Positions 2,754 through 22,305 of a DNA stretch of 23,978 bases are shown here, piece by piece (the stretch's first letter is position 1; each line of letters starts with the position of its first letter). The DNA comes from a virus. The notes below the pieces were generated by a model. The model saw nothing but the letters and a program-made list of their open reading frames with translations. It was not told the origin of the DNA and made no database searches. The position numbers were made by a program, and so were the translations under genes. The stretch covers positions 1 through 23,978 of the IMG/VR virus record IMGVR_UViG_3300010160_001778; one strand, given 5' to 3'.

Positions 2754-5528
2754 ATGACAACACGCAAATACTCCTCACGCTCACAACAGACTACATTATC
2801 TGGAGCATTAACCTCTTCTGGTACCTCAGCAACTGTGGTATCTGGAACTTCATTACTAGGCGGAGTCACAATTTCCGCTGGTGAAATCTTTACGGTGGTG
2901 ATTGACCCTGATACAGCCCTTGAAGAAATTGTAGATGTATCTGCGGTATCAACCAACACACTTACTATTGTTCGTGGTCGAGATGGTTCATCTGGCGTAG
3001 CCCACTCTGCTGGTGCTGTAGTACGACATATGGCAATTGGTAGAGATTACCGAGAAGCCAATTTACATATTGAAGCGTCCTCTTCTTACAATGATGGCAC
3101 AGGAACTCATACAGTTCACGGTGTATCTGGTTCCGTAGTGGGAACTACGGATACACAGACTCTTACCAATAAGACAATTGATACTGCAAGCAATACAATT
3201 ACTGGAGCAGCAACTCTTACTGGAACTCAAACATTAACTAACAAGACTTTAACTAGCCCAACCATTACTGGTACTGGTGCTATTGCTGGAACCTTTACAG
3301 GTAACCTTACGGGTAATGTAACGGGTAACGTAACTGGTAACGTATCAGGCACATCTGGTTCTACAACTGGTAATGCAGCCACCGCTACAGCACTTGCTAC
3401 AGGCCGCACAATAGCCCTTACGGGTGATGTAAGTGGTACTTCTGCATCATTTGATGGAACTGGCAATGCAAGTATTACAACAGCAATTGGCGCTAATATA
3501 ATCGTAGATGCAGATATTAATGCTTCTGCTGCTATTACTAAAACTAAAATTTCTGGAACTGCTGTTACACTTGCAGATACTGGAACAGTTACAAGTGCTA
3601 TGATTGCTGATGGAACTATTGTAAATGCTGATATTAACGCATCTGCTGCAATTGATTGGACCAAGATTGCCCCATCATCAACAGTATCCGCAACAGAACT
3701 TGGATATGTAGATGGAGTCACTTCTTCTATTCAGACTCAATTAGATTCTAAATTGGCTACCACCACAGCATCAAGTACATACGCTCCTCTTGCTAGCCCA
3801 GCATTAACTGGTACACCAACAGCGCCTACTGCTACTGCTGGAACCAATACAACACAGGTTGCAACTACAGCATTTGTAGGAACTGCAGTATCCAACCTTG
3901 TGGCTGCAGCACCTGCTGCTCTTGATACTCTTAATGAGTTAGCAACTGCCCTTGGTAATGATGCTGCATTTTCTACAACAGTAACCAACTCTATTGCTAC
4001 TAAATTGCCACTTGCAGGCGGAACAATGTCTGGTGCTATAGCAATGGGTACTAACAAGATTACTGGATTGGGAACACCTACTGCGTCAACTGATGCGTCA
4101 ACAAAGGGTTACGCTGATACTATGCTTCCTCTTGCTGGTGGCACTATGTCTGGTGCTATTGCAATGGGTACTAATAAAATTACAGGACTAGGTACACCTA
4201 CAACATCTACAGATGCTGCAACAAAAGGTTATATTGATACAGTAGTACTTGCACCTAGCAACTTGACTGGCCCTATTACATCTGTTGGTGCTGCAACATC
4301 TATTGCATCTCAGACTGGTACTGGTACTAAGTTTGTAATGGATACTAGCCCAACCTTAGTAACCCCCAATATTGGCGTGGCTACTGCTACATCTATTAAC
4401 TCAACTACAATTCCAACAAGTAAGACTTTAGTTGCTACAGATTCAACTGCATATGTAGTACCTAGTCAGACTGGCAATAATGGTAAGTACTTAACCACAG
4501 ATGGAACTACCTCATCTTGGGGAACAGTTGCTGGTTATTCAGCACCAACACTTGGTTCAACATCTATTGCATCAGGTGCAACGGTAACTAATGTTAATGG
4601 TTTAACTGTTAACACAACTACTATTCCTACATCTAAAACTTTAGTGGTAACTACAGATAAATTATCCGTCCACGCTGCAACTACTTCTGCAGAACTTGCA
4701 GGAGTTATTTCTGATGAAACTGGTTCTGGTGCTCTTGTATTTGGTACTTCACCTACATTAGTAACTCCTGCGCTAGGAACCCCTGCATCTGGAGTGCTTA
4801 CTAACACAACTGGATTGCCTTTAACTACTGGAGTTACTGGCACACTGGGCGCAACAAACGGCGGAACAGCGCAATCAACTTATGCAACAGGCGATACCAT
4901 CTATGCTTCTGGTGCAAACACATTATCTAAGAGAGCCATTGGTTCAACTGGAGATGTATTAACTGTATCTGGTGGTGTTCCTACTTGGGCTGCACCTGCT
5001 GGCGGTAGCGGTATGACACTAATTGCTTCTGGTAATATTACTACTGGTACTAATAGCATTACAAGCATACCTGGTACTTATATTGATTTAATTCTTGAAT
5101 TAAGAGATTTTGGTCACTCAAGTGGTTATGGTGGTGGTCTTTATATGGGATTAAATAGTTATACTCCGCCTGCCTACAATCAGGCCTATGAATATAACAA
5201 CGGTTTTTGGTTTGATACCACTGGTTCAAAACCTTCTTATCAATATACCAATCAGAGCAATACTAGTTTTTTTATTGGAAGCGTAAGTTCTAGCACCGAC
5301 CAGCAACTAAGATTTACTTTCCCTTTATATACCCTATCTGCTGGAAAATTTAAAACTATAGAGTGGAGAGGCTGGACTCGTGGCTCAAGCGGTTTAAGTA
5401 GTCAAAGATGGACCGAAGGTCACGCAAGAACATTTTCTGCTGGACAAACTAACATTGGAGCAATTACATCTATTCAATTCTCTAACTTCTCAGCAAATGG
5501 AACATACAAACTATATGGAGTAAAATAA
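2754..5528 (+). CDS. Tail fibre / receptor-binding protein with internal repeats
   Basis: A 924-residue, Thr/Ser/Gly/Ala-rich protein. The N-terminal ~120 residues likely attach to the tail (VVEIVDVSAV-type beta strands and a GRDG turn). The middle has fibre repeats: QTLTNKT twice, a GNVTGNVTGNVSG run (DNA ~3301-3350), ADINASAAI repeats, and two 39-residue units starting LPLAGGTMSGAIAMGTNKIT that match at 36 of 39 positions (4005-4121 and 4125-4241). The last ~170 residues change to an aromatic-rich globular domain ending TYKLYGVK, probably the receptor-binding tip. Such Thr/Gly-rich shafts are typical of trimeric fibres. The stop overlaps the next ATG. Long antisense ORFs over it are shadows of the repeats. 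Confidence 0.85.
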   Translation: MTTRKYSSRSQQTTLSGALTSSGTSATVVSGTSLLGGVTISAGEIFTVVIDPDTALEEIVDVSAVSTNTLTIVRGRDGSSGVAHSAGAVVRHMAIGRDYREANLHIEASSSYNDGTGTHTVHGVSGSVVGTTDTQTLTNKTIDTASNTITGAATLTGTQTLTNKTLTSPTITGTGAIAGTFTGNLTGNVTGNVTGNVSGTSGSTTGNAATATALATGRTIALTGDVSGTSASFDGTGNASITTAIGANIIVDADINASAAITKTKISGTAVTLADTGTVTSAMIADGTIVNADINASAAIDWTKIAPSSTVSATELGYVDGVTSSIQTQLDSKLATTTASSTYAPLASPALTGTPTAPTATAGTNTTQVATTAFVGTAVSNLVAAAPAALDTLNELATALGNDAAFSTTVTNSIATKLPLAGGTMSGAIAMGTNKITGLGTPTASTDASTKGYADTMLPLAGGTMSGAIAMGTNKITGLGTPTTSTDAATKGYIDTVVLAPSNLTGPITSVGAATSIASQTGTGTKFVMDTSPTLVTPNIGVATATSINSTTIPTSKTLVATDSTAYVVPSQTGNNGKYLTTDGTTSSWGTVAGYSAPTLGSTSIASGATVTNVNGLTVNTTTIPTSKTLVVTTDKLSVHAATTSAELAGVISDETGSGALVFGTSPTLVTPALGTPASGVLTNTTGLPLTTGVTGTLGATNGGTAQSTYATGDTIYASGANTLSKRAIGSTGDVLTVSGGVPTWAAPAGGSGMTLIASGNITTGTNSITSIPGTYIDLILELRDFGHSSGYGGGLYMGLNSYTPPAYNQAYEYNNGFWFDTTGSKPSYQYTNQSNTSFFIGSVSSSTDQQLRFTFPLYTLSAGKFKTIEWRGWTRGSSGLSSQRWTEGHARTFSAGQTNIGAITSIQFSNFSANGTYKLYGVK
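4005..4241 (+). repeat. Tandem 117-bp repeat units in the tail fibre gene
   Basis: Two units, 4005-4121 and 4125-4241, have a 120-bp period. They encode nearly the same 39 residues beginning LPLAGGTMSG, with three amino-acid differences. Silent-site differences are numerous, so the duplication is old or under selection at the protein level. It belongs to the fibre shaft. Confidence 0.85.
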
Positions 5529-5758
5529 TGACTAATCAAGAAGAATGGTTTATTACAGAACATAATGTTACAACTGGTGAAATAACCAGTAGGCCAGCGA
5601 CAGAAGAAGAAAAACTTCAACACCTTGCTACCGAAAATGAATTTTTACAAAACCAATTAAATAGAGCAAAAGAACAAGAAGAATTAGAAAAACAAAAAGA
5701 AGAACTGTTAACCAAACTTGGTTTAACAAAAGAACAATTTGATTTGTTAATAAAATAA
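5528..5758 (+). CDS. Small coiled-coil protein next to the tail fibre
   Basis: A 76-residue acidic protein. Residues ~24-65 are dense in Glu, Lys, Gln and Leu with heptad spacing (for example LQNQLNRAKEQEELEKQKEE), typical of a coiled coil. It starts at ATG 5528, overlapping the stop of the fibre gene, with a GGAG ribosome binding site inside the fibre's last codons, so the two are co-translated. Fibre genes are often followed by a small chaperone or attachment protein; that role is likely here by position but not shown by sequence. Confidence 0.7.
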   Translation: MTNQEEWFITEHNVTTGEITSRPATEEEKLQHLATENEFLQNQLNRAKEQEELEKQKEELLTKLGLTKEQFDLLIK

Positions 5759-5763
5759 TCAAA

Positions 5764-6342
5764 ATGTATAATTTTGCACTTGATAAAAAAGCAGAAACAT
5801 TTACATATAAAAATCAAGGAAAATATAATGTAGATGCTATTGCAGAAAAATTAAAACAGTTTGGTGATGAGTGGTTTTTAGATACCACAAGGCAAAAAGA
5901 GTATGCTGTTCATACACTTACTAATTCATATTTTATCTATGAACACTCAAACAAGTGGACATACGGTTTACCATATAATGTAGAGTATCGTTGCGCAGAT
6001 GATAAACTATTTGCTTTGGTAGAACCAATCATTAAAGACCTTGAAAAAATCCACAATGGCAAAGTTGCTAAATGTCTTTTTATCAAACTACCTATTGGCA
6101 AAGTTGTTTATGAACATTCTGATGTTGGTGATTATTTTAATGCAGTTAGACGCCACCATATAGCAATTCAAACAAATCCAGATACCTTCTTTAGGATTGA
6201 TGGAGAAAAAAAGAATATGCTCGTTGGTGATTGTTGGGAAATAAACAATATGAAGTTACACTTTGTTGAAAACAATGGAGATACAGATAGAATACATCTA
6301 TTAATAGATATCTTTCCAAATGATATATTCGCCACAGCATAA
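5764..6342 (+). CDS. Aspartyl/asparaginyl beta-hydroxylase-like 2OG-Fe(II) dioxygenase
   Basis: A 192-residue protein. Residues ~100-185 match the Asp/Asn beta-hydroxylase family: EHSDVGDYF (H118, D120), RRHHIAIQTN (~129-138), GDCWEINNMKLHF (H166) and DRIHLLIDIFP (R176). In the family, two histidines hold iron and the Arg binds 2-oxoglutarate, and the enzymes hydroxylate Asp/Asn side chains of proteins. The N-terminal ~95 residues are not recognised. It starts at ATG 5764 with a weak ribosome binding site and overlaps the next gene by 23 nt. It is the first gene of a coupled set with the sulfotransferase and APS kinase. A tail or host-surface protein is the likely target, by inference. Confidence 0.75.
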   Translation: MYNFALDKKAETFTYKNQGKYNVDAIAEKLKQFGDEWFLDTTRQKEYAVHTLTNSYFIYEHSNKWTYGLPYNVEYRCADDKLFALVEPIIKDLEKIHNGKVAKCLFIKLPIGKVVYEHSDVGDYFNAVRRHHIAIQTNPDTFFRIDGEKKNMLVGDCWEINNMKLHFVENNGDTDRIHLLIDIFPNDIFATA

Positions 6343-6955
6343 ATTTCTTCTTGTTAAAAATTTTAAAGTTGGTGGAACCTCTCTTGAGATAGACTTAGAA
6401 AAAGTTTTGCCAGCCGATGCCATAATAACAACTCAAGAACCATCTATGCCAGATGATTATTTGCCTCGTAACTATAAAGAGTATGGTTTTGATAGTCATA
6501 CTCCATTTAATATATTTGAGTATAAATTGCCAGAGGCTACAAAAGATTTAACATCAGTAGTTTTTGTTCGTAATCCATTTGATACAGTCCTTTCTCATTT
6601 CTTTATGATGTTAAAGTTTTACAATGCTAATATAGAAGAATACAAAGATTATGTTTACGGCTACTTTAATGGAACAATATCTATGGGTATGCTAGGAAGT
6701 ACAAAAGACATTTACGCTAGCGGTGGTACTGTTCAGGTATCCAATGTTTTGCGCTATGAAGATGGTATTGAGAATCAGATTAACCCAATACTTACCCAGG
6801 TAGGAATACCTAACATAACCGTTACCGCAAAAGAAAAAGCGTGGCGACCAGCACACTTAACCCCTGAAGATGTATTTAATAAAGCACAATTAAATATAAT
6901 TAAAAAAGAGTGGGCCTGGGAAATTAAGAACTTCTATCCAGAGTTGGGACAATAA
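6320..6955 (+). CDS. Sulfotransferase (PAPS-dependent, Sulfotransfer family)
   Basis: A 211-residue protein. HKFLLVKNFKVGGTSLE (residues 7-23) is the 5'-phosphosulfate-binding loop (KVGGTS), and VVFVRNPFDTVLSHFF (80-95) is the 3'-phosphate-binding motif, RNPxxxxxSxF. SHTPF near residue 60 also fits the family. Such enzymes move a sulfuryl group from PAPS to a hydroxyl or amine of a glycan, protein or lipid. The gene starts at ATG 6320 inside the hydroxylase gene, without a clear ribosome binding site, so translational coupling is likely. Its stop overlaps the start of the APS kinase gene (TAATG), linking donor synthesis to transfer. The acceptor is unknown. Confidence 0.82.
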   Translation: MIYSPQHKFLLVKNFKVGGTSLEIDLEKVLPADAIITTQEPSMPDDYLPRNYKEYGFDSHTPFNIFEYKLPEATKDLTSVVFVRNPFDTVLSHFFMMLKFYNANIEEYKDYVYGYFNGTISMGMLGSTKDIYASGGTVQVSNVLRYEDGIENQINPILTQVGIPNITVTAKEKAWRPAHLTPEDVFNKAQLNIIKKEWAWEIKNFYPELGQ

Positions 6956-7710
6956 TGATTATTCAAATTATAGGATTACCAGGTAGTGGCAAAACAACCC
7001 TTGCCGTTGAACTAGCAGATAGAATTAACGCAGTCCATTTAAACGCAGATTATGTTCGTTCAACAATTAACTCTGACCTTGGCTTTACCCCAGAAGACCG
7101 TATTGAACATTCTCGCCGTATGGGTGAAATGGCTCTTATGCTTTCAGGTCAAGGGTTAAATGTAGTTGTAGATTTTATCTGCCCAACACCAGAAACTCGT
7201 AAAGCCTTTGGCAAGCCAGATATTCTTGTTTGGATGAATACAATTACTGAGGGACGCTTTGAAGATACAAACAAAATGTTTGTAAACCCAGATAAATTTG
7301 ATATTATATTTGATTCACACGATATGGACAAATATCAAAAAGCAATATGGATTATTCAGAAATTTAATTTATATGACTGGAAGTCACCAACCACATTACT
7401 TCTTGGCAGGTACCAACCTTGGCACGAGGGACACCAAGCACTTAAGGAGAAAGCAGATGAGCGCACAGGGCAAACAGTTATCGCGGTTAGGCACACTCAA
7501 GGAACTTCCGAGAAAGACCCGCTGTCTTATCAAGAAGTGGTGGAATTCATTTCTAGCAACGGAGTACCCAGACCATTTACTATAAAGGTACCTAACATTA
7601 CCAACATAGTTTACGGCAGGGATGTAGGGTACAAAATAGAACAGGTAGATTTGGGTGCAGATATACACGCTATTTCCGCTACTCAAAAAAGAAAAGAACT
7701 TGGTATATGA
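6955..7710 (+). CDS. APS kinase fused to an HxGH nucleotidyltransferase
   Basis: A 251-residue two-domain protein. Residues 1-145: Walker A GLPGSGKTT (7-15), NADYVRSTINSDLGF (30-44) and EDRIEHSRRMGE (47-58), which are the signature of adenylylsulfate kinases that phosphorylate APS to PAPS. Residues ~146-251: LLLGRYQPWHEGH (HxGH-type site, 157-160) and ISATQKRKEL (~240-249), typical of nucleotidylyltransferases of the cytidylyl/NMN-adenylyl superfamily. The kinase half is shorter than free-standing APS kinases (~200 aa). The second domain might make APS from ATP and sulfate, or act on another nucleotide; this cannot be decided here. It overlaps the sulfotransferase upstream and the DUF2061 gene downstream. 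Confidence 0.8.
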   Translation: MIIQIIGLPGSGKTTLAVELADRINAVHLNADYVRSTINSDLGFTPEDRIEHSRRMGEMALMLSGQGLNVVVDFICPTPETRKAFGKPDILVWMNTITEGRFEDTNKMFVNPDKFDIIFDSHDMDKYQKAIWIIQKFNLYDWKSPTTLLLGRYQPWHEGHQALKEKADERTGQTVIAVRHTQGTSEKDPLSYQEVVEFISSNGVPRPFTIKVPNITNIVYGRDVGYKIEQVDLGADIHAISATQKRKELGI

Positions 7711-7910
7711 AAGTAACCAAGGCTCGTTCGTTTACAAAATCTTTAAGTTATAGAGTATTTGGAACTTTAAGTTCTTTTGCTGTTGTTTATGCAATTACTC
7801 ATAAAGGAAGTTTATCCGCTTTAATTGCATTCTGGGAAACTATTGTAAAAGTAGGTATATACTACTGGCACGAAAGAATCTGGAATAAAATTACTTGGGG
7901 TAGAAAATAA
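7707..7910 (+). CDS. DUF2061 small membrane protein
   Basis: A 67-residue protein that fits the short DUF2061 family: RSFTKSLSYRVFGTLSSF at the N-terminus, two hydrophobic segments (~residues 17-31 and ~37-53), and the C-terminal YYWHERIWNKITWG signature. It overlaps the APS kinase gene by ATGA. From memory, DUF2061 domains are often found beside or fused to sulfate-activation genes, which would fit here; the biochemical role is unknown, and sulfate or sulfonucleotide handling at the membrane is only a guess. Confidence 0.78.
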   Translation: MKVTKARSFTKSLSYRVFGTLSSFAVVYAITHKGSLSALIAFWETIVKVGIYYWHERIWNKITWGRK

Positions 7911-12247: not shown

Positions 12248-12845
12248 CACACTTGCTTTATGGGATAAGGCTTGGATTAAGGAAGCAGAAGGTGTTGACT
12301 TAACCTTTGCACGTGTAGGTGGTAGAACATCTAAAGCATTCCCTAACAGGGAGAACGTAGATTTCTGGCAACAGACAGGGCCTGAGTGGGTTCAGTCTTA
12401 TATTGATTGGCGTAAGGCTAATCATAACTGGAAGATTTGGTTCACTCCTGAAGGCGCACCCGCCATAGAGTTGGGGTTGACTCCTATTTTTGCTGGCGTG
12501 CCAGTGAAGATGGTTCTCGATAGAGTGTTTGAAGTCGATGGTGAGTTGGTCGTGGTTGACCTCAAGACTTCACAACAGACCCCAACTTCTACCTTACAAC
12601 TTGGCTTCTATAAACTAGGACTTAAGCAAGTCTTAGGTATAGATGTAAAGTATGGTGCATACTGGATGGCTAGGCAAGAAGGTACTTCTGCTATGGTTGA
12701 TCTAAGTGGCTACACTGAAGAGAAACTTGAGTACTTAGTTAGTAACTTTGATAAGGCTCGCAAGGCTAGTATATTTATTCCCAACACAAACAACTGCAAT
12801 CGTTGTGGACTAACAGAACACTGTCAGTTCACTTCGAAGAAATGA
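12234..12845 (+). CDS. C-terminal part of the Cas4/AddB-like Fe-S nuclease (split gene)
   Basis: A 203-residue ORF holding the catalytic part: GVPVKMVLDRVFEVDG (D96), VVVDLKTSQ (D109, K111, the (D/E)XK motif), QLGFY (Q122, Y126, the QxxxY motif), and NNCNRCGLTEHC (C188, C191, C197), three cysteines that would complete an Fe-S cluster with the cysteine in the separate N-terminal ORF. The apparent start is TTG 12234, overlapping the inserted ORF. No ribosome binding site is clear, so translation probably depends on the upstream ORFs. In phages such nucleases process DNA ends during recombination. Without the N-terminal half, the cluster and motif I would be missing. Confidence 0.75.
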   Translation: MVTSDTLALWDKAWIKEAEGVDLTFARVGGRTSKAFPNRENVDFWQQTGPEWVQSYIDWRKANHNWKIWFTPEGAPAIELGLTPIFAGVPVKMVLDRVFEVDGELVVVDLKTSQQTPTSTLQLGFYKLGLKQVLGIDVKYGAYWMARQEGTSAMVDLSGYTEEKLEYLVSNFDKARKASIFIPNTNNCNRCGLTEHCQFTSKK

Positions 12846-12853
12846 GAGAAACA

Positions 12854-13243
12854 ATGGCAAACGAAGACTGGAAACTACAAGTTTCCTACAAAACACCATC
12901 AGGTGATATGATAAACGTACGCGCTAATACTGCTGATGAACTATCAGTATTGTTAGAAGGCGTAGGAGATTACTCTCCACAAATTGCTGCTACTCAGCAA
13001 AAGATCGTAGGTTCATACGCTCTAAACCCGTCCTCGACATCGAGTTCCACTACAAGCACAAGGCCCTCGAGTTACTCCGCTCCAACCCCAGTCTCAGCAG
13101 CGTCAGGTACAGCGTCACCCGTATGCAAACACGGAGCCCGTATATGGCGAGAGGGAATCAGTAAAGCAAGCGGTAAACCATATGCATTCTGGTCTTGTCC
13201 TTCACCACAAGGAACACCTGACCAATGCAAACCAGTAAACTAA
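12854..13243 (+). CDS. Phage replication-associated protein with C-terminal zinc ribbon
   Basis: A 129-residue protein. The N-terminal ~55 residues (MANEDWKLQVSYKTPSGDMI) form a likely small alpha/beta domain. A Ser/Thr/Pro linker of ~40 residues follows, then CKHGARIWREGISKASGKP, FWSCP and DQC, a zinc-ribbon of the type seen at the C-terminus of some topoisomerases and single-strand-DNA-binding phage proteins. An in-frame ATG at 12842 overlaps the previous stop and is the alternative start. The gene lies between nuclease and helicase genes, so DNA binding is likely. Confidence 0.65.
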   Translation: MANEDWKLQVSYKTPSGDMINVRANTADELSVLLEGVGDYSPQIAATQQKIVGSYALNPSSTSSSTTSTRPSSYSAPTPVSAASGTASPVCKHGARIWREGISKASGKPYAFWSCPSPQGTPDQCKPVN

Positions 13244-19109: not shown

Positions 19110-19289
19110 TCAGATTTCCTCTGCTTCTACATCAGTTCCAAGTGGCATATCAAAATCATATACTTCCCACTCCTTAAATGGTGCTTCTATTGCTTGGTTA
19201 ATTGCCGCCTCGATATCATACTCTGATATATAATATACCAGCGTAGCACGAACCGCATTAACCTTAACTCTATACTGCTTCGCTTCCAC
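19110..19289 (-). CDS. Small protein of unknown function
   Basis: A 59-residue acidic ORF with GTG start at 19289, beginning MEAKQYRVKVNAVRATLVYY, with EYDIEAAINQAIEAPFKEWE and ending VEAEEI. GAGGGGA lies at correct spacing from the GTG. It begins inside the last 20 nt of the WhiB gene in another frame. The alternation of basic strand and acidic helix looks like a compact alpha/beta fold, but no family is recognised. Confidence 0.6.
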   Translation of the reverse strand: MEAKQYRVKVNAVRATLVYYISEYDIEAAINQAIEAPFKEWEVYDFDMPLGTDVEAEEI

Positions 19290-19683
19290 TTATTCCCCTC
19301 TCTTTCATAGCACGCCTAACCTTGCGAGCAAACATTAACTTCTGTTTGTTAGCAGAGTTCTTCATTGACCTACCTGCCGTAAGCAATCGTTCTCCTGCCA
19401 TAGTGCCACCATATATACCGAAGTATAACTGATGCCCACGCTTGCCTATCTCTAGGCAGTTATCTTTAGCAGGACAACCCTTACATACTGATAGAGCAAC
19501 GATAGCCTTATCTACTTCTGCTTGTACTGCCGTTGAATTTGTATTGACGCTACTGTTAGGGTCACTTAAATCAACCTCGCCTGCGAACCATAAGTCAGGG
19601 TCGTCGTGCTTAACACATAGACCATTACTTATATCTAAATCTTTATCGTTAGATAAATATAAATCTATCATACCTTTAGCCAT
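19270..19683 (-). CDS. WhiB-family transcriptional regulator
   Basis: A 137-residue protein. The four cysteines that hold the 4Fe-4S cluster are C23, C67, C70 and C76 (SVCKGCPAKDNCLEIG), followed by LYFGIYGGTMAGER (~87-99), the family's G[IV]WGG-like turn with Tyr in place of Trp, then a basic C-terminus that would contact DNA. WhiB proteins occur in actinobacteria and their phages, bind sigma-A and alter transcription, and some phage copies shut down host septation or exclude superinfection. ATG 19683 overlaps the upstream stop (TGATG). Confidence 0.88.
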   Translation of the reverse strand: MAKGMIDLYLSNDKDLDISNGLCVKHDDPDLWFAGEVDLSDPNSSVNTNSTAVQAEVDKAIVALSVCKGCPAKDNCLEIGKRGHQLYFGIYGGTMAGERLLTAGRSMKNSANKQKLMFARKVRRAMKERGISGSEAV

Positions 19684-20248: not shown

Positions 20249-20265
20249 CCAATTCTAGAAGTCAA
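20237..20265 (-). promoter_or_regulatory. Sigma-70-type promoter for the 95-residue gene and downstream genes
   Basis: On the minus strand TTGACT (20265-20260), 17-bp spacer, TATAAT (20242-20237): a near-perfect promoter. Its -35 half lies in the last codons of the glutamine amidotransferase gene. It should drive 19884-20171 and the genes after it. Confidence 0.8.
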
Positions 20266-21100
20266 GTGGCTCTTTACTATACCACTTGTTGTCAATAAAT
20301 CCATACTCATCTCTTATCATACCCTTAGCATTAGGGTTGTAGCATAGGCAGTCTAAGAACTGTGCGCTACAATCAAAGCAACACTCACACATCAAGCAGT
20401 AGAGTTCGCTATCCCATAAATCTATTAACGCATTACAATTAGGACACTCGAACTTGTTTTCCTCATACGCAGTAGGTTCGAAGTGCTTGTCTGCTACTAC
20501 TATATCATACACACTAGCCTCATACTTGTAAGTCGGGGTAGCCTTGTGTGAATTATTACTCCACCATATACCATTGTCGTCCCAACTACCAGCACTCTCG
20601 TTGATAATATACATCTTGTATTGTGCGCTAGGGTCATTGGTCATAACTGCTACCTTACTACCGCTAGCCCACGAACTCATCATATCATATAGATAGTCAT
20701 CATCTAACGCAGACACACCGCCTAGTCGTGGCAGTAATTCCTCTGCTAAGATACGAGTATCGCTACGCTTATCATCTTTAGGTATTAGAATATCTAACAC
20801 GCCATTGTGCGCTAAGTAAGTATCGTGCTCACCTGCTACCTTAAATGGGTGGCAGTTAAGTTCGTTCTTAACTCCGTGAGTAGCATACCTAGCGTGCCAC
20901 ATAGCATAGCCATTAGGATACTGCTCTCTAAGTTCTAAGAACCTAGCGATAGACTTCTTAGCAGACATACTGCGCTCAGATATAATACCCTCGCCAGTAT
21001 CTATCGCAAAGCCAAAGCCGTGTGGGTTCTTACACGCACCCTGCTTTAGTTCATCTTTACTCGGTGTGGAATTAGGATTACACACCACTAACAAACACAT
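20255..21100 (-). CDS. Class II glutamine amidotransferase with C-terminal Cys-rich domain
   Basis: A 281-residue Ntn-hydrolase. It starts MCLLVVC, so Cys2 becomes the N-terminal nucleophile after Met removal; WHARYATHGVKNELNCHPF (R71-H84) and YLAHNGVLD (N99, G100) are the glutamine-binding and oxyanion motifs, with D114 nearby. It would release ammonia from glutamine. Residues ~213-257 add four or five cysteine pairs (FECPNC, YCLMCECCFDC, LDCLC), probably zinc ribbons, unusual for this family. AAGGGGG precedes ATG 21100, 11 nt after the amidoligase stop, so the two are one unit; ammonia or a glutamyl group may pass to the ligase. Confidence 0.85.
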   Translation of the reverse strand: MCLLVVCNPNSTPSKDELKQGACKNPHGFGFAIDTGEGIISERSMSAKKSIARFLELREQYPNGYAMWHARYATHGVKNELNCHPFKVAGEHDTYLAHNGVLDILIPKDDKRSDTRILAEELLPRLGGVSALDDDYLYDMMSSWASGSKVAVMTNDPSAQYKMYIINESAGSWDDNGIWWSNNSHKATPTYKYEASVYDIVVADKHFEPTAYEENKFECPNCNALIDLWDSELYCLMCECCFDCSAQFLDCLCYNPNAKGMIRDEYGFIDNKWYSKEPLDF

Positions 21101-21111
21101 ACTTAACCCCC

Positions 21112-22305
21112 TTACGCATTGACTAACTCTTTACTATTTAGAACTAACTTATCCACTCTACTCATACGCATATAGAGTTCAGGATACCTGCCGTTGTTGG
21201 CTTGTATCCAGTCAGCGAACCACTCCCAACTTAACGCACCCATTTTAACATCAGATAGGGTCAAGTCCCTTGTGTATTCTACTGTTGCGTGTGCTAATTG
21301 TATAGCACTAAGAACACTACTAGGGTTCATAGTTCCTCTAAAGAACCTGAGTTCTAGCGTGTGTTCGTTCTGCGTATTTACCGCAGAATATCTCTCGGTC
21401 ATAGCCCTGCTAGGGTGTGCGACCTTGTTTGCTAATGTGAAGTATGGTCGGTCATACTCATCATACTGCCACACATCACTAAACTTAGCATAGGTAGAAC
21501 TTCTACCGCCTAACTTCATCATCTTATCTGAGTTCTTATAGATAAGGGATAAGAACCTATGCGTGTGTGCGCCACCCTTAAACCCTGCCCTGCTTATATG
21601 AATATGAAGTCCGCAACTCTTAGCGTCCCAACTCCTAGCCGTATGAACCCTGCGTAGATAGTCTAGCGTAGTCCATAAGTTCTTATGGTCAGCGAAGTAA
21701 TCTAATGTAGCAGGGTGAGATACCATTTCGAACCCACGATACCCGCCACTATTGATACTGCTATCCTCTTTAAGATATACGAACTCGCCTAACATCTCGC
21801 CAATATACTCGGCACTATCACTTAGGTTGTTATCCCTAATCTCCATTTCTAATTCTATACCGAAGTGTAGTTTATTCTTATCCTCACCATAGAATATAGG
21901 GTGTGGCTTGTAGGAATAATTATTGATTAACCTACCACCACTCTCACACTCACACTCATCTCGGTTATACTGTTCACAACTATCGCACCAAGTCGCACCA
22001 TTTTGGCAACAGTCCTCGCACCAATAGACACCAATATCTGCCACCTCATAACTAGAGTGGTTGTCCGAGTAAGTATCCTCGCACCTCTCACACCAGAAGG
22101 TATAGTTATCAGCGCATACCTCGCAATAAGTTCCACAACCCTGAACATATCTACTATTATCAGCGTAGTCATACTCCTCGCAACGCTCACACCATATACG
22201 ACAGTCAGCGCATATCTTATCGCCATTACGATTACTCTCTAGTTCATCAGGTCTATAATCACTAGAGCAACTAGAACACTCTACTAATTCTATATCCTCA
22301 GACAT
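21112..22305 (-). CDS. Amidoligase (COOH-NH2 ligase family) with N-terminal zinc fingers
   Basis: A 397-residue protein. Residues 1-120 have 18 cysteines in CxxC-like pairs (CSSC, CADCRIWCERC, YCEVC, WCERC, WCEDCC, WCDSC, CEC), probably several zinc ribbons. From ~146 on it matches the glutamine-synthetase-fold amidoligases: LHFGIELEMEI, LKEDSSI, GFEMVSHPATL, CGLHIHISR (~231-239), RYSAVN (~305-310) and ELRFFRGTMN (~318-327). These ATP-dependent enzymes join a carboxyl to an amine. The substrate, which may be peptidoglycan, a protein or a small molecule, is unknown; the fingers may bind it. AAGGAG before ATG 22305. The gene pairs with the glutamine amidotransferase. Confidence 0.85.
   Translation of the reverse strand: MSEDIELVECSSCSSDYRPDELESNRNGDKICADCRIWCERCEEYDYADNSRYVQGCGTYCEVCADNYTFWCERCEDTYSDNHSSYEVADIGVYWCEDCCQNGATWCDSCEQYNRDECECESGGRLINNYSYKPHPIFYGEDKNKLHFGIELEMEIRDNNLSDSAEYIGEMLGEFVYLKEDSSINSGGYRGFEMVSHPATLDYFADHKNLWTTLDYLRRVHTARSWDAKSCGLHIHISRAGFKGGAHTHRFLSLIYKNSDKMMKLGGRSSTYAKFSDVWQYDEYDRPYFTLANKVAHPSRAMTERYSAVNTQNEHTLELRFFRGTMNPSSVLSAIQLAHATVEYTRDLTLSDVKMGALSWEWFADWIQANNGRYPELYMRMSRVDKLVLNSKELVNA

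Follow-up and report, generated by a model that had tools for sequence, protein, structure and literature searches.

A predicted PAPS-supplied sulfation module with exchangeable sulfotransferases in phages

A cassette of four overlapping genes in an IMG/VR virus contig of 23,978 bases, analysed here over its whole length and called the window, is probably a phage sulfation module, with the neighbouring tail fibre, or some other part of the virion surface, as its most probable target and a host-surface glycan in second place. In this reading, the enzyme families, catalytic motifs, linkage and swapping come from sequence, structure prediction and gene order, and from these we infer the reactions, the source of adenylyl sulfate (APS), the acceptor and the benefit. 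A preliminary description of the same DNA had proposed that the phage sulfates a target, and the sulfation module as such is supported by its enzyme families, intact motifs and conserved linkage.

The cassette and its setting

All four open reading frames that had been described at 5764-7910 are found there on the + strand. Successive frames share 23, 1 and 4 nt, which makes the genes a single, closely packed unit. The features of the window used below are:

2754-5528, + strand: tail fibre, 924 aa (PHROG tail-fibre families, best E = 3.1e-28)
5528-5758, + strand: small fibre-associated open reading frame, 76 aa, between the fibre and the cassette
5764-6342, + strand: ABH, Asp/Asn beta-hydroxylase-like Fe(II)/2OG dioxygenase, 192 aa (PF05118)
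6320-6955, + strand: ST, predicted PAPS-dependent sulfotransferase of class A, 211 aa (motifs, family alignment and predicted fold)
6955-7710, + strand: KNT, APS-kinase-like domain with an NMNAT-like nucleotidyltransferase domain, 251 aa (PF01583)
7707-7910, + strand: DUF2061 small membrane protein, 67 aa (PF09834)
12803-13243, + strand: relative of mycobacteriophage L5 gene 49
19270-19683, - strand: WhiB-like gene

The cassette had been placed between a tail fibre and a second large tail protein. PHROG matches uphold the fibre; a tail role for the second protein was not confirmed, the 733-aa gene downstream having as its sole match phrog_11667, a family without assigned function. The 76-aa frame, which overlaps the fibre gene by 1 nt, had no significant match in family and PHROG profile searches, and a DNA comparison of the whole window gave a single short match, in the fibre. 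The WhiB-like gene and the relative of L5 gene 49 point to an actinobacterial host, at the level of phylum and no finer.

Two other regions of the window may also concern modification. A glycosyltransferase-like gene (777-1523, + strand; phrog_34859) lies upstream of the fibre, and its relatives also occur near KNT or ST at loci L016, L020, L162 and L163. On the - strand, at 20255-22305, a class-II glutamine amidotransferase-like gene adjoins a putative amidoligase, possibly a second modification system.

A predicted sulfotransferase of a divergent type

The assignment of ST as a PAPS-dependent sulfotransferase was borne out by invariant motifs, family profiles and predicted fold. As a single sequence, the window's ST has no significant family match in profile searches; among 32 aligned relatives, 18 match Sulfotransfer_2 (PF03567), the best at E = 3.2e-9. 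The 5′-PSB motif KVGGTS and the 3′-PB motif RNPFDTVLS are both present, with Arg84 and Ser92 of the latter eight residues apart, and K16, S21, R84, P86, S92 and E147 are invariant across the 32 relatives. The predicted structure (AF2; pLDDT 94.7, pTM 0.90) retrieved PAPS sulfotransferases as all of its top Foldseek matches (best E = 2.2e-5), on which it overlays loosely, at a TM of about 0.5. Motifs and model together support a PAPS-dependent sulfotransferase, predicted to transfer sulfate from PAPS.

A single-sequence search with ST found no relative among phage records or viral contigs. With a five-sequence alignment as the query, 51 loci were recovered, several of them near-duplicate contigs; four of the five query sequences had been drawn from KNT loci, which leaves this search not fully independent of KNT. 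Because Pfam sulfotransferase profiles detect phage STs poorly, we used class-specific alignments instead, and distinguish class A, that of the window; class B, of PRSGN type and Sulfotransfer_1/3-like; and class C, of HIPKTAG type and Sulfotransfer_2-like. An invariant Arg and Ser eight residues apart occur in all three. At locus L136, a 205-aa gene before KNT (6413-7030) keeps VRNPLD and has no obvious 5′-phosphosulfate loop, and is possibly a decayed sulfotransferase.

KNT joins an APS-kinase-like domain to a nucleotidyltransferase-like domain

KNT had been read as an APS kinase/nucleotidyltransferase, and its two halves hold up unequally: residues 2-84 match PF01583 (E = 1.5e-15), and the C terminus matches PF01467 weakly (E = 0.008). 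We place the APS kinase domain at about residues 1-140 and an NMNAT-like domain, with GRYQPWHEGH and ISATQKR, at about 145-251. Profile matches agree, the kinase domain matching APS kinases (7e-15) and the C-terminal domain the NMNAT 2qjt (5e-5). With the predicted structure (AF2; pLDDT 82.8, residues 225-243 poor), Foldseek returned APS kinases first, led by the APS kinase of human PAPSS1 (2ofw, E = 7.5e-9). Compared with bacterial CysC and NodQ, the kinase motifs are present (P-loop, D-x-x-R, N, LGF, DR, RR and F-x-P). The lid is shortened relative to known APS kinases, lacking the segment RDPKGLYKKARAGEI and retaining the Phe aligned with FTGI. By fold and motifs, the N-terminal domain is thus classed as APS-kinase-like.

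The preliminary description had the phage making its own sulfate donor. The step towards PAPS is supported; production of PAPS from sulfate unaided is not, the C-terminal domain resembling NMN adenylyltransferases and not ATP sulfurylase. The ATP sulfurylase profile PF01747 has no match in this domain, which is matched weakly by PF01467 and by NMNAT models, and no ordinary PF01747 ATP sulfurylase occurs elsewhere in 16 related phage records. APS may come from the host, or from the C-terminal domain acting as an unusual ATP sulfurylase. Kinase-only forms of KNT (139 aa) persist in some ST-ABH loci, which suggests that the kinase is the part that ST needs.

IMG/VR holds at least 597 relatives of KNT; a search with the Stenotrophomonas KNT as the query gave no matches. 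Relatives in cultured phages of Stenotrophomonas, Xanthomonas and Clavibacter (L084, L085 and L086) have no detected DUF2061, and in that of Stenotrophomonas phage Bhz60 the kinase motif is less APS-kinase-like.

DUF2061 ties KNT to sulfate activation

The last gene of the cassette is the DUF2061 membrane protein that it had been taken for (PF09834; E = 1.2e-15, 58.1 bits against a cut-off of 23.1). Of 81 phage loci with KNT, 77 have DUF2061 close by, usually directly after KNT; Casjensviridae isolates carry KNT without a detected DUF2061. The papers found, which mention this family in passing, describe no function for it. In bacteria it keeps telling company: 12 of 16 Bacteroidota genomes with DUF2061 have it beside cysH, cysD, cysN or cysC, in a flavobacterium it is flanked by an Rrf2 regulator on one side and cysH-cysD-cysN-sulfite reductase on the other, and in the nod cluster on symbiosis plasmids of Mesorhizobium its neighbours are a sulfotransferase and cysD-cysN. 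This setting is absent around the bacterial and archaeal copies on plasmids of Natronococcus, Bradyrhizobium and Halomicrobium. Because DUF2061 occurs in bacterial sulfate-activation operons, KNT is best read as serving sulfate activation, and service to a sulfotransferase has a precedent. Among the Bacteroidota loci, L114 and L115 have DUF2061 immediately ahead of cysC, as a doubled copy of 139 aa and as a protein of 240 aa.

A probable supply unit and exchangeable sulfotransferases

The gene set recurs as a unit in other phages, absence of which had been named as grounds for rejecting the proposal. KNT is present in the fetched DNA of 38 of the 51 ST loci, with one further record carrying it elsewhere, and the order ABH-ST-KNT is found in 11 of the 51, followed by DUF2061 unless the contig ends. 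The genes also occur as KNT-DUF2061-ST, as KNT-ST-ABH-DUF2061, and as ST-ABH with a KNT that consists of the kinase alone.

At the site that the cassette occupies in the window, the sulfotransferase is replaced. Loci L002, L004 and L008 have KNT-DUF2061 flanked, as in the window, by the fibre upstream and the 733-aa protein downstream; where the window has ABH-ST, these loci have other sulfotransferase-like genes, which overlap KNT or directly adjoin it. Pairwise comparison of these STs with that of the window gave no significant similarity, and each has an Arg and a Ser eight residues apart. Unrelated STs at one site indicate that KNT-DUF2061 is the constant part and that the sulfotransferase is swapped. 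At the loci measured, STs are more AT-rich than the neighbouring KNT, in keeping with exchange. The ST of L004, L007 and L018 is fused to a phrog_7759 domain that is otherwise free-standing in fibre operons.

An ST does not accompany every KNT: it lies immediately upstream of KNT (or upstream of ABH) in 12 of 81 loci and within 5 kb in 28 of 81, a tally from which extra matches to the fibre-operon domain alone, without sulfotransferase, were discounted. As a control, loci were chosen by a fibre-operon gene, and none of the 57 lacking KNT has an ST. Among all 60 such loci (at least 10 kb), three have KNT and two have ST, both with KNT; one of these two contigs was already in our set (L266 is L018), which makes the control small. 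An ST of some class is found in 13 of 20 large KNT records, and each of the six longer than 100 kb has at least one, both being counts within KNT records, with no size-matched KNT-free set. Large genes resembling NodU-type carbamoyltransferases, tryptophan halogenases and glycosyltransferases (neighbour clusters 20, 23 and 27, named by eye) recur near KNT, which gives the impression of a region where enzymes that modify surfaces or metabolites collect.

The hydroxylase is linked to the module

ABH proved to be the Asp/Asn beta-hydroxylase-like dioxygenase that had been proposed (PF05118, E = 3.2e-14 in a Pfam profile search). The iron triad HxD...H and the 2OG-binding Arg are both intact, and H118, D120, H166 and R176 are invariant in an alignment of 22 phage relatives. 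The predicted activity, from sequence, is hydroxylation of Asp/Asn side chains; LpxO is a weak match, and PF05118 also takes in such other substrates.

A separate scan with ABH gave 80 loci, reduced to 46 on removal of ST-derived contigs and near-identical proteins. In these 46, ABH is directly beside ST in 17 (other genes of the same loci, 2.5%), directly beside KNT in 22 (other genes, 0.8%), and beside any of ST, KNT or DUF2061 in 36; background adjacency to DUF2061 for other genes is 7.6%. Overlapping ABH-ST or ST-ABH pairs occur with three unrelated ST classes, and L082 and L083, found through ABH alone, show the overlap again, with class C STs. These observations support a genuine link between the hydroxylase and the sulfation module. 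At locus L009, several distinct Fe(II)/2OG oxygenase-like genes stand in tandem upstream of KNT.

Proposed mechanism and alternative readings

In the mechanism that we propose, the KNT kinase domain would phosphorylate adenylyl sulfate to PAPS, the nucleotidyltransferase domain would probably supply or handle adenylyl sulfate, and DUF2061, a small membrane protein that accompanies sulfate activation, may help in sulfate or nucleotide handling. ST would pass sulfate from PAPS to a hydroxyl of the target, on which ABH may make or prepare acceptor groups. KNT-DUF2061 would thereby form a constant supply unit alongside which varied sulfotransferases are plugged in.

Each enzyme could be assigned otherwise. 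A role for KNT in NAD salvage or as some other nucleotide enzyme, a kinase with an NMN adenylyltransferase and no tie to sulfation, accords with the nearest solved relatives of its C-terminal domain, which are NMN adenylyltransferases, and with its place after a NADAR gene in phage Bhz60. We consider this improbable: the kinase domain is clearly closest to APS kinases in sequence and fold, its partners are DUF2061 and STs with no NAD gene noticed among the common neighbours, and the kinase alone is retained beside ST-ABH. More improbable still is that KNT is a viral cysC, an auxiliary gene of sulfur assimilation that feeds host cysteine synthesis, with ST and ABH incidental. Viral cysC is usually catalogued under sulfur assimilation (PMC12713726, PMC9611531), and cysH is often next to bacterial DUF2061; against this, linkage to ST and ABH far exceeds background, and in the common KNT neighbour clusters, taken without a family-model search, no PAPS or sulfite reductase was recognised. 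Assimilatory sulfate reduction is also missing from many streamlined freshwater bacteria (PMC11561045); if the host here, placed no finer than phylum, is one of them, a self-contained supply would be useful. Given the swapping of STs beside a constant KNT-DUF2061 and the place of DUF2061 in bacterial sulfate-activation and nod operons, a PAPS-supplied sulfation module, not sulfur assimilation, is the best reading. Within that module, ABH might have a target of its own and merely travel with the sulfation genes in a common hot spot. It does adjoin KNT or DUF2061 without ST, a few loci have none of these, and the window's nearest relatives carry ST without ABH; the overlapping pairs that keep recurring with three unrelated ST classes make an independent role somewhat unlikely.

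The same chemistry could act on a host-surface glycan, a lipid or a small molecule, as a means, for instance, of preventing superinfection or later adsorption, and of the alternatives this deserves serious weight, though we hold it clearly less likely than a virion target. Some phage STs match carbohydrate families such as Gal-3-O-sulfotransferase, DUF2061 is a membrane protein, and the rhizobial parallel sulfates glycans (PMC6192434). Complete cassettes also occur away from fibre genes: in L062 and similar loci, its neighbours are an IMPDH-like gene on one side and a nuclease gene on the other, which rules out the notion that it is always in the tail region. Such cassettes, with the carbohydrate-type class C STs, keep a host-glycan target in play. 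Conversely, ST is located at a fibre gene in the window and in L002, L004, L007, L008, L012 and L018, six loci in which ST directly precedes KNT beside fibre-like genes; and three STs are fused to the fibre-operon domain. This adjacency and these fusions favour a virion target, with the tail fibre at 2754-5528 as the candidate acceptor. Of the earlier suggestion that the virion itself is modified, the fibre-side position counts in favour, and the several complete cassettes outside tail regions count against; the window's nearest relatives lack the hydroxylase.

Relation to known systems and significance

Dedicated supply of PAPS to a sulfotransferase has bacterial precedents, NodH with NodPQ in rhizobia for sulfation of glycans, namely Nod factors and surface polysaccharides (PMC6192434), and RaxST with RaxP/RaxQ for protein tyrosine sulfation in Xanthomonas (PMC4216712). 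In the rhizobial clusters, as in the phage cassette with its sulfotransferase and predicted APS kinase step, the sulfotransferase adjoins PAPS-forming genes, and in Mesorhizobium DUF2061 lies between them; unlike the phages, rhizobia use a CysD/CysN-type ATP sulfurylase, have no hydroxylase and modify a known glycan. RaxST is likewise a bacterial sulfotransferase with its own ATP sulfurylase and APS kinase, but these are separate enzymes, the proposed substrate is a secreted peptide, and no DUF2061 or hydroxylase is described (PMC4216712). Animal PAPSS1/2 share with KNT an N-terminal APS kinase, PAPSS1 giving the best structural match, and a C-terminal domain of nucleotidyltransferase fold; KNT is far smaller (251 aa, against about 620), and its C-terminal domain is NMNAT-like, without PF01747.

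Phage sulfotransferases and viral cysC, whose superfamilies the cassette shares, have been catalogued as auxiliary genes; in the parts of these reports that were available, they are listed as single genes, with no module, DUF2061 link or ST swapping (PMC10580990, PMC8290583, PMC9611531), and one of them calls the role of phage sulfotransferases unclear (PMC10580990). A literature search that left most subscription papers and all preprints uncovered found no published description of a phage sulfation module. The new element would be a sulfation module of phages, supplied with PAPS, that combines a compact donor enzyme and a hydroxylase with sulfotransferases that can be exchanged.

A bolder proposal makes KNT a PAPS synthetase in one chain of 250 residues, with an ATP sulfurylase domain of a new type, and has actinophages hydroxylating their own fibres and afterwards sulfating them, with STs swapped to alter surface chemistry, in a new class of phage post-translational modification. 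We regard this full version as unlikely.

The module reading joins viral cysC and sulfotransferase genes, so far listed singly, and gives them a testable role, the formation of sulfate esters during infection. It ties DUF2061, an uncharacterised family, to sulfate activation in bacteria and phages, and suggests that KNT could be a PAPS synthetase in miniature. Sulfation of the virion, if it occurs, would represent a novel type of phage surface modification, and one belonging to highly abundant freshwater viruses.
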